Shown here: positions 3,055-7,492 of the stretch, in pieces
How positions within the stretch are numbered: the stretch's first letter is position 1
Layout: each line of letters starts with the position of its first letter
Origin: Bacilli bacterium
GTDB taxonomy: Bacteria; Bacillota_I; Bacilli_A; Haloplasmatales; Haloplasmataceae
NCBI GenBank assembly: GCA_012513195.1
Contig: JAAZCR010000273.1
Coordinates: 1-11,399, forward strand
Length of the DNA stretch: 11,399 nt
Reading direction: 5' to 3'
The notes under the pieces: model-generated
The model's database searches: none
What the model saw: the letters and a program-made list of their open reading frames with translations, nothing else
Told to the model about the DNA's origin: nothing
Made by a program: the position numbers and the translations under genes

Positions 3055-3086
3055 AAATGGTCAATTAAAATTGACCATTTTTTTGT
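3053..3086. terminator. Bidirectional intrinsic terminator between converging genes
   Basis: An inverted repeat (about 3053-3066 with 3069-3082) with core TGGTCAATT / AATTGACCA has A-runs before and T-runs after the stem on each strand. On the plus strand it ends the zinc-ribbon operon. On the minus strand it ends phoP-phoR-phoU. The zinc-ribbon stop codon (3052-3054) and the phoU stop codon (3065-3067) both lie in or at the edge of it. Confidence 0.85.
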
Positions 3087-3799
3087 TTATCTGTATTTTC
3101 ATTCTTTTGTAAGAGATGATGGGGTGGTTCATAATTTATTTTCTTACCCTTAACTAAATATAGAATTTGCTCTGAAATGTTAGTTAAGTGATCGCCACTA
3201 CGCTCAATTTGCTTATTCAGCACTAGCGCATGGCTAATCATATGTTGTTCAAACTCATAATTTGTTAATTTAAATTGATTTAATAGTTTTTTGAAATTTT
3301 CACGATAGATGCGGTCAATTTCCGTATCCATTAACATTGCATCTCTCGCTTTGTTGCGATCTTCTTCTAAAAATGCTTCTAAGTTTTTCTCTAACATCTT
3401 AAAAATGATCGCAAACATATCATCAAAGCTTGATATATACTCACTGGCCTTTTCAACATTCATCTCTTTAGCGGTAATCACATACTCTGCGATGTTCTTT
3501 GCATAATCAGCAATCCGCTCTAACTCATAAGCCAGTCTGCTAATCGTCATTACCCGACGTAAATCCAAATCAACGGGATTATATTGGGCGATAATGTTAA
3601 TGGTGTCTAAGTCGATTTGTTCCGCAAATTTATTGATATCACCATCATTTTTAATAACTTCAAGTGCTAACTGGCTATCCCGTGTTTTAATTGAATGAAT
3701 AACTTTTTTGTACTGTTCAATAATCATGAAGACTAAGTTTTTGATATCTAAGCGTAATATTTCTATACTATCACTTAATAATCGTTTCTCTTTAGTCAT
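3065..3799 (-). CDS. phoU: Phosphate signalling protein PhoU
   Basis: A 244-residue all-helical PhoU-family protein, which in other bacteria damps PhoR signalling and links it to the PstSCAB phosphate transporter at the membrane. Both family repeats are visible with their metal-binding motifs: ELERIADYAKN at 92-102 and IERSGDHLTN at 198-207. Each repeat also has its preceding helix pair (VIKNDGDINKFAEQID and AMLMDTEIDRIYRENF). It is slightly longer than the usual 215-230 residues because of a polar, His/Asn/Lys/Gln-rich tail encoded through the terminator. I chose ATG 3799 because the family-like sequence begins there. AGGAAAGG is about 12 nt upstream, rather far, and overlaps the phoR stop; a TTG at 3811 would sit directly against that site. 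It is last in the phoP-phoR-phoU operon. No pst transporter genes are in the window. Confidence 0.93.
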   Translation of the reverse strand: MTKEKRLLSDSIEILRLDIKNLVFMIIEQYKKVIHSIKTRDSQLALEVIKNDGDINKFAEQIDLDTINIIAQYNPVDLDLRRVMTISRLAYELERIADYAKNIAEYVITAKEMNVEKASEYISSFDDMFAIIFKMLEKNLEAFLEEDRNKARDAMLMDTEIDRIYRENFKKLLNQFKLTNYEFEQHMISHALVLNKQIERSGDHLTNISEQILYLVKGKKINYEPPHHLLQKNENTDKQKNGQF

Positions 3800-3817
3800 A
3801 ATGATATACAACCTTTC

Positions 3818-5137
3818 CTAACTCTTCTTAAAATAAATAATAAACTCCGTTCCCTCATTGACCTTGCTTTTTACCTCAATAAATGCTTGATGAATATCTA
3901 AAATCGATTTTACAATCGCAAGTCCTAACCCTGTACCCCCCGTTACACGACTACGGGCTTTATCAACGCGATAAAAACGCTCAAAAATATGAGGAAGCGC
4001 CTTTTCATCAATCCCAATTCCCTCATCCCTTACACTTACAACAATTGATTTATCGTGCTCATAAGATTTTATGTAAATTGATTTGTTTTCATCTGTGTAA
4101 TTAATCGCATTATTAATTAAATTTATAAATACTATTTTCAAACGTTCATAATCCCCTGTAATTGTTAAGTTATCATTTAAATCAAGATGTAATGTTTGGT
4201 GCTTTTCTAATAAACGATAGTTTAATATATTTATAACACTATGAATAAGTTCTGATAGATTAATCTTTTCAATGTTTAAAGTTAGATTCGCACTCTCTAA
4301 CCTTGAAAGCAACAGTATCTCATTAACGATTCTTTCCATCCGTTCGTTTTCTTCTTTAATAATTGTTAAAAATTCTTTAATAGTCTCTTGGGGATGATTT
4401 CCATTTAGCAATATTTCGGAAGCTCCTTTAATGGCTGATATGGGTGTCTTAAGTTCATGACTAGCATCAGCTAAAAATTCACGTTGGAGATTTTCGTATT
4501 TTTTAAGTTCGGTAATATCATGAAAAATATACACTATACCGATAAAAACATAATGACTGTTTATTCTATTTCTGATAGGAATCGCATTTGCTTGATAATA
4601 CCTTTCGTTAATACCGAGAGTTTCTGTATTGTGTGTTTCAAAAATAAAAGTATCATCAATGAATTTATATAATGTTTTATTACGTAATTTTTCGTAAATA
4701 TCGTTTATTTCAAGATTAACTTCAAAACTATTTAGAAACTGATTGTTAACATAGCGAATTTTCCCATCACGATCAATATATATAATAGGACTCGTGATAT
4801 TATTGGTAAGAATTTCGATCGCTAGTTGGTCTTCTTCTTTCATTGAACGCATCTTATCGATATTACGCATTAACCTGTTCAAGTTCGCATTAAATCTTCG
4901 ATTAGCGACAAAACGTTCTACCTGGGTTTTTTCAATCTGATTATTAATAATTTTTTCTAAAACATCATTCATTGTGGCATATTCTTTATTTATCCAATGG
5001 AAATAATAGAAAAACGGCGCTATAACTACAACATATAATACTATCATTAATGGAATATTATTATGTGTTAAATAACCTATCCCCACTAAGATTCCAACAT
5101 ACAACAATCCATAAATAACTATTCTATTTCGTTTCAT
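3818..5137 (-). CDS. phoR: Sensor histidine kinase PhoR
   Basis: A 439-residue membrane histidine kinase, the expected partner of the regulator gene just upstream. Two membrane segments (about 6-24 and 28-46) are separated by only a few residues, so there is essentially no outside sensor domain. Next come a linker helix, a PAS-like domain (about 105-215, ending in the typical FHDITELKKYE), the HisKA phosphoacceptor H227 in FLADASHELKTP, and a HATPase domain with N box LINNAINYT (340-348), G1 DEGIGID (371-377), F box FERFYR and G2 GGTGLGLAIV. All catalytic motifs are intact. The ATG at 5137 overlaps the end of phoP by 14 nt and has AGAGGA about 8 nt upstream inside phoP, so it can be translated even if phoP translation stops early. 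PhoR is the best match by motif and by the phoU neighbour; another cell-wall or stress kinase is less likely. Confidence 0.9.
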   Translation of the reverse strand: MKRNRIVIYGLLYVGILVGIGYLTHNNIPLMIVLYVVVIAPFFYYFHWINKEYATMNDVLEKIINNQIEKTQVERFVANRRFNANLNRLMRNIDKMRSMKEEDQLAIEILTNNITSPIIYIDRDGKIRYVNNQFLNSFEVNLEINDIYEKLRNKTLYKFIDDTFIFETHNTETLGINERYYQANAIPIRNRINSHYVFIGIVYIFHDITELKKYENLQREFLADASHELKTPISAIKGASEILLNGNHPQETIKEFLTIIKEENERMERIVNEILLLSRLESANLTLNIEKINLSELIHSVINILNYRLLEKHQTLHLDLNDNLTITGDYERLKIVFINLINNAINYTDENKSIYIKSYEHDKSIVVSVRDEGIGIDEKALPHIFERFYRVDKARSRVTGGTGLGLAIVKSILDIHQAFIEVKSKVNEGTEFIIYFKKS

Positions 5138-5813
5138 TGCTGACTTCCTCTAACATATAACCTATTCCACGTTTTGTCACGATAACAACATTACTACCAG
5201 TTAGTTTTTCCCGCAGTTTAAAAATGTGAACATCGACAATCCTCGTATCGCCATCATATTCGAAACCCCATAATGTTTCTAAAAGAACATCACGTGAAAG
5301 GGCGATACCTTTATTTTTTATGAGGAATAATAATAAATCATATTCTTTCCGTGTTAATGGAATGAGTTTTCCATTTACAAAGACTTCATGACGATTGAGG
5401 TCGATAACTAGACTACCCAATGTTATGAGGTGTTCTTCAGTACTGTTTAATTTTTGTCGTCTTAATCCTGCCTTAACTCGCGCTAAAACTTCTCTAGGGG
5501 AGAATGGTTTGGTCATATAATCATCAGCACCTGATTCTAGGCCAATGATTTTATCGATTTCGTCATCGCGTGCAGTTAACATGATTATATAAACATCGTT
5601 GTTTTCTTTTCTCAATTGTTTACATATTTATAATCCATCTAATTTAGGTAACATTAAATCTAAAATGATTAGATCATAATCATTCTCTTTGGCTTTTTTT
5701 AAACCATTCATTCCATCATAAGCGTTATCGACTTCATAACCAGCTTGAGTTAAATCATATGTAAGTAGTTTTTGAATAGATTATTCATCCTCAATGACCA
5801 ATATTTTCGCCAT
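5124..5813 (-). pseudogene. phoP: Response regulator PhoP, interrupted by two in-frame TAA codons
   Basis: Read through, the 230-codon frame is a complete OmpR/PhoB-family regulator. It has a receiver domain (1-115) with acidic E8 D9 E10, phosphoacceptor D52 in [14 protein letters not shown]80 in MLTA and the TKPFSPREV lysine, then a winged-helix DNA-binding domain (about 135-227) ending TKRGIGYMLEE. The start is ATG 5813 with GGAG about 7 nt upstream, beginning MAKILVIEDE. Two in-frame TAA codons break it: codon 11 (5783-5781) and codon 62 (5630-5628). At both places PhoP proteins have a conserved Glu (DDE-E-SI and DG-x-E-xC), so each looks like a single G-to-T change of GAA. No frameshift or other lesion is visible. 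From the second stop to 5124 the frame is open (codons 63-229), but the possible internal starts (TTG 5615, ATG 5582) lack a good binding site. As written, no working regulator would be made. Sequence error or recoding are alternatives. Confidence 0.88.
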
Positions 5814-5918: not shown

Positions 5919-6026
5919 CTCTCCTTAAGGACCCTCACCCACATAAGATAAGATACTTAAGGCTGCTTCCGCTAGGACCTGACCTGGTTCGCATCCATCC
6001 CATTGGATGAGGGTTCTTAAAGAGAG
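5919..6026 (-). ncRNA. ffs: Signal recognition particle RNA (small 4.5S type)
   Basis: RNA scaffold of the signal recognition particle, which binds Ffh and targets nascent membrane proteins. On the minus strand, 5991-5962 carries the universal domain IV signature (ACCAGGTCAGGTCC, then GGAAGCAGCC), with the Ffh-binding asymmetric and symmetric loops preserved. The tetraloop between the two halves (5974-5971) is UAGC, a URRC-type loop instead of the commoner GGAA. The ends pair into a long helix: CTCTCTTTAAG (6026-6016) with CTTAAGGAGAG (5929-5919), continued by CCCTCA (6013-6008) with TGAGGG (5937-5932). Total length is about 108 nt, so it lacks the Alu domain of Bacillus SRP RNA. The T-rich tract after the closing helix (5918-5901) probably ends transcription. 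The position between tadA and the dnaX cluster matches Bacillota synteny. Exact ends are estimates. Confidence 0.95.
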
Positions 6027-7430: not shown

Positions 7431-7448
7431 TTTTTCACTCCTTCCGCC

Positions 7449-7474
7449 CTGAATTTTCCGCAAATTAAATCCAG
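7449..7474 (-). other. Small hairpin in the rpmE leader
   Basis: In the predicted 5' leader of rpmE, 7474-7467 (CTGGATTT) pairs with 7456-7449 (AAATTCAG) in 8 pairs including one G-U, around a short loop. It ends a few nt before the ribosome binding site (GGAAGGAG), so it could affect translation. It has no T-run and is not a terminator. Functional relevance is a guess. Confidence 0.3.
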
Positions 7475-7492
7475 AGTAAGTTTTACTAGATT

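Follow-up and report, generated by a model that had tools for sequence, protein, structure and literature searches.

The window analysed here, an 11,399-nucleotide stretch of DNA from a Bacilli bacterium of the Haloplasmataceae, carries a phoP-like response regulator frame that runs from an ATG to a TAG (5124-5126) over 229 codons, is free of indels and is interrupted by two in-frame TAA codons (Table 1). Re-reading of the sequence bore out the preliminary description of this locus, which had reported a full PhoP/OmpR-family frame interrupted by TAA at codon 11 and again at codon 62, no indel, and retention of D52, T80 and the lysine of the TKP motif. Sequence models place the product in the OmpR family, with a receiver and an OmpR-type DNA-binding domain at full length; both Pfam domains are also present in the near-identical proteins described below, and the PF00072 receiver profile (107 bits) spans both stops. 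The base following the stop is T at codon 11 and A at codon 62. Eleven other complete ORFs in the window are without internal stops, as is one ORF cut by the window end.

Table 1 Features of the phoP locus (window positions)
Feature	Position	Strand	Remarks
phoP-like response regulator frame, two in-frame TAA	5124..5813	minus	ORF reading and profile search
TAA at codon 11	5781-5783	minus	Gln in near-identical proteins; family variable there
TAA at codon 62	5628-5630	minus	Glu in near-identical proteins
phoR/pnpS-like histidine kinase, intact	3818..5137	minus	Start overlaps phoP end
phoU, intact	3065..3811	minus	TIGR02135, 150.8 of 130.25 bits, above cut-off
Small bacterial SRP RNA (RF00169)	5923-6019	minus	51.3 bits; between tadA and phoP
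L31-Firmicutes ribosomal protein leader (RF03156)	7438-7476	minus	Before rpmE

The name PhoP is taken from operon context only, because the NCBIfam scores of the product fall under their cut-offs (best model YycF, 232 of 340 bits; PhoB equivalog TIGR02154, 211.4 of 296.2 bits); the PnpS/PhoR-like kinase likewise scores under its cut-off (348 of 400 bits). For comparison we used the source assembly (G000; 314 contigs, 91% complete) and that of a congener (G001; 210 contigs), which shares with the window the gene order tdk, tadA, phoP, phoR, phoU, a small opposite-strand gene, dnaX and ybaB. As in the PhoP/PhoR (PnpS) phosphate systems of Gram-positive bacteria, the regulator, an overlapping PnpS/PhoR-like kinase and phoU lie in one direction; unlike in those systems, regulator and kinase stay under the NCBIfam equivalog cut-offs, and no PstB above its cut-off was found in the source genome or the congener (best 263 and 257 vs 343 bits). 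Raw stop flags appeared in the PstB profile search on congener contigs C71 and C117. Each of the two genomes also contains a second PhoU-type match, in frames of 564 and 586 aa that we take to be Na/phosphate cotransporter-like. Both genomes keep phoP-phoR-phoU and perhaps have a phosphate system that lacks the Pst transporter.

Residues 11 and 62 in related proteins

To read the two stop positions in relatives, the 8000 candidates with most words in common were scored in a protein collection, and 59 proteins were listed. Six of these (P0001-P0006) are intact, 229 aa long and 98-99% identical to the window product, and occur on 18, 10, 8, 1, 2 and 5 contigs, respectively (44 contigs, the longest of 220 kb). 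P0001 equals the window product at the other 227 residues and differs only at the stops, where it has Gln 11 and Glu 62; P0002-P0006 also have Gln 11 and Glu 62, plus one or two more differences each. Residue 11 is Leu in the next four closest relatives, and the 55 of the 59 listed proteins that are readable there by motif have Leu (17), Gln (14), Val (14), Ile (7) or Ser, Thr and Phe (one each), with Glu in none. Residue 62 is Glu in all ten closest relatives listed and in 36 of the 49 readable among the 59, the others having Thr (9), Gln (2), Asn (1) or Ser (1). The earlier placement of both stops at conserved glutamates is thus wrong for codon 11, and the accompanying argument from two identical-type changes fails, as the stops do not stand in for one amino acid. 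A G-to-T damage signature was discarded as well, since it presupposed loss of one and the same residue at both sites.

The congener protein has an intact frame with Leu 11 and Glu 62, and is 93% identical to the window product over 228-229 residues (92.1% if the stops are scored as mismatches). No stop at residue 11 or 62 was present in any relative seen, and no near-identical shortened product was found among the 59 proteins listed, the sole short protein there being P0059 (169 aa, 77% identical, on a contig of 1,178 bases). Among the 80 loci kept from a scan of named genomes, no relative exceeded 55% identity; records near the window may be missing from that set. The window frame is broken and that of its close relatives is intact; comparison with relatives, a check proposed in the preliminary description, found the near-identical copies and the congener open, and many-lesion decay was not found in relatives. 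A second intact phoP elsewhere, which had been named as support for simple gene decay, was not found in the 91% complete assembly, where the next-best regulator is 36% identical. Judged by sequence, the two-stop allele is private to the source strain or assembly among the sequences seen.

Between window and congener phoP, 116 codons differ, 98 of them synonymously and 18 not (both stops included). With the stops omitted, dN is 0.047 and dS 2.56 (saturated), a ratio of 0.018, compared to ratios of 0.049 for phoR and 0.019 for phoU. PhoR differs from its conspecific counterpart at 2 of 439 residues with no decay seen, a point that on its own counts against reading phoP as a null allele. The low ratios, the near-identical phoR and the kept gene order indicate that strong selection acted on the frame up to a very recent point and that the rest of the operon is unbroken.

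Stop codon usage and internal stops across genomes

In the source-genome sample, 96 of the 142 ORFs that reach 150 aa end in TAA, as do 8 of the 11 complete window neighbours (the other 3 end in TAG). These counts rule out global TAA recoding, which had already been judged unlikely on the grounds that TAA ends nine other genes here; the recount lowers nine to eight. Site-specific decoding of TAA as Glu, offered earlier as a third option, presupposed Glu at both sites and is contradicted by the six near-identical proteins with Gln at residue 11; none of the 55 relatives read at that residue has Glu. Among the 10 tRNA genes seen, none has the anticodon TTA, a weak observation in an assembly from which most tRNAs are missing. 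A tRNA-Sec gene (anticodon TCA) is located on contig C156 of the source genome (L124).

Internal stops in other genes were surveyed by profile search and by a two-way comparison of source genome and congener. Internal stops were present in 2 of the 61 ABC_tran matches of the source genome and in 1 of the congener's 68, and all three turned up again in the two-way comparison. No stop was flagged in the 150 ABC_tran matches listed of 371 in four other genomes (2, 30, 80 and 1 contigs), nor among the matches listed of 189 in two fragmented members of the family, of 200 and 180 contigs. PF00528 gave no in-frame stop among the matches listed in five genomes including the source, which counts against an even excess and against the main reading given below. 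For the PF00271 helicase, the only flags other than end effects were raw flags in two under-cut-off rows of source contig C216. Stops well within the frame were confined, among the regulator matches listed, to window phoP; the stops of the 18 other flagged rows all lie at most 5 codons from the match end and are normal terminators. Taken together, these 18 regulator rows and two helicase rows other than those on C216 have 19 of 20 stops in the last 5 codons and one at the second codon, and none is a lesion. Dropping these 20 flags does not shift the odds for the main reading, set out in the next section, which is carried by ABC_tran and the two-way survey. A search for split genes by coding potential helped little: most of the 10 places it gave read as normal junctions between genes, and phoP itself was missed.

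In the two-way comparison, 102 of 227 congener reference ORFs were matched in the source sample (33,212 codons), and 96 of 162 reference ORFs in the reverse direction (30,647 codons). Each direction yielded 7 candidate internal stops, and one frameshift was seen, in the source genome (small numbers). The source candidates fall in phoP (2), potA (1), an ABC ATPase and permease pair (3) and an ORF taken for antisense (1). Those of the congener include three at reference codons 14-24, which may precede the true start, two in ORFs taken for antisense, and two clear cases with one internal stop each in an otherwise intact frame: a PuuR-like regulator on C142 (L146:4348) and an ABC gene on C57 (L162:7540). 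This equality of tallies (7 and 7) counts against the null-allele reading. In the source genome, potA (C107, L126:425) has one internal TGA where the conspecific P0088 has Gly, with three further differences over a 238-residue fragment, and the ABC pair (C198, L127:798-2804) has three internal stops and one frameshift. On this comparative evidence, phoP is one among several broken genes of the source genome.

Explanations for the two stops and their meaning

We consider it probable that phoP is a very recent strain-level loss-of-function allele of a once-constrained phosphate-type regulator; more specifically, we infer that living cells carry the stops and have a null allele. Translation would halt once 10 codons had been read. 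Ribosomes restarting between the stops would run into codon 62, and those restarting past it would make a piece without the phospho-acceptor D52, while PhoR and PhoU, having their own starts, could still be made. Like bacterial strain-level nonsense pseudogenes, phoP has its stops in a once-constrained intact frame that is unbroken in near-identical relatives; unlike them, it has two stops and no missense change, and its presence in cells is presumed. This combination of two nonsense and zero missense changes (relative to P0001) is the oddity left over and counts against a null allele. Of the 1608 possible single changes in phoP that alter an amino acid, 116 (7.2%) are nonsense, which puts the chance that two random changes are both nonsense at about 1 in 200, before allowing that phoP was picked for its stops. 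Repeated selection for phoP loss in the population, with several coexisting phoP-null nonsense alleles of which two were joined here by recombination or assembly, would explain two stops without missense, and we regard it as unlikely.

The main rival to a recent null allele is that the stops are absent from the organism and reflect a low-coverage consensus error or a collapsed strain mosaic, which we hold to be possible but the less probable reading. Consistent with such an artefact, the source is a 314-contig, 91% complete assembly, intact near-identical proteins occur on 44 contigs with no shortened near-identical product listed, and scattered single stops in otherwise intact genes are also found in the 210-contig congener. 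However, random errors would be mostly missense, yet none occurs in the other 227 codons relative to P0001; the ABC_tran matches listed for two family members with assemblies just as fragmented (200 and 180 contigs) are free of flags; and isolated base errors poorly explain the multiple lesions of the C198 ABC pair. Recent pseudogene and sequence error had been the first two options of the preliminary description, and both remain live, in the same order.

Two readings would retain a working product. An internal start past codon 62 could supply a DNA-binding domain without a complete receiver, and a 163 aa open frame does begin at a TTG at 5615; however, by eye no ribosome-binding sequence precedes the internal starts and no near-identical short protein is among the 59 listed, making this short form very improbable. 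Readthrough of both TAA codons to give a full-length regulator is scarcely credible. In its favour, the remaining phoP frame is intact, and stop codon readthrough happens in stressed E. coli, according to one study (PMC11126739). Against it, the residues at the two sites differ from each other in near-identical proteins, no relative seen retains a stop, two successive stops must be passed, and TAA terminates 96 of the 142 sampled ORFs. Furthermore, that study, which used an E. coli reporter, describes TAA as the least read-through of the three stops and termination as more accurate when T comes next (PMC11126739), and T is the base that follows codon 11.

The phoP case is ordinary, a recent nonsense allele or an artefact, with no recoding; the phoP locus itself was not found in literature search listings. 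It removes one candidate for recoding of TAA as glutamate, since near-identical proteins have Gln at residue 11 but Glu at residue 62. Should the stops prove to be an artefact, the locus still teaches that an argument from a known motif calls first for a look at that very residue in relatives. If the stops are real, a strain without its PhoP-type regulator that has kept the kinase and PhoU would be a small natural experiment in phosphate sensing.
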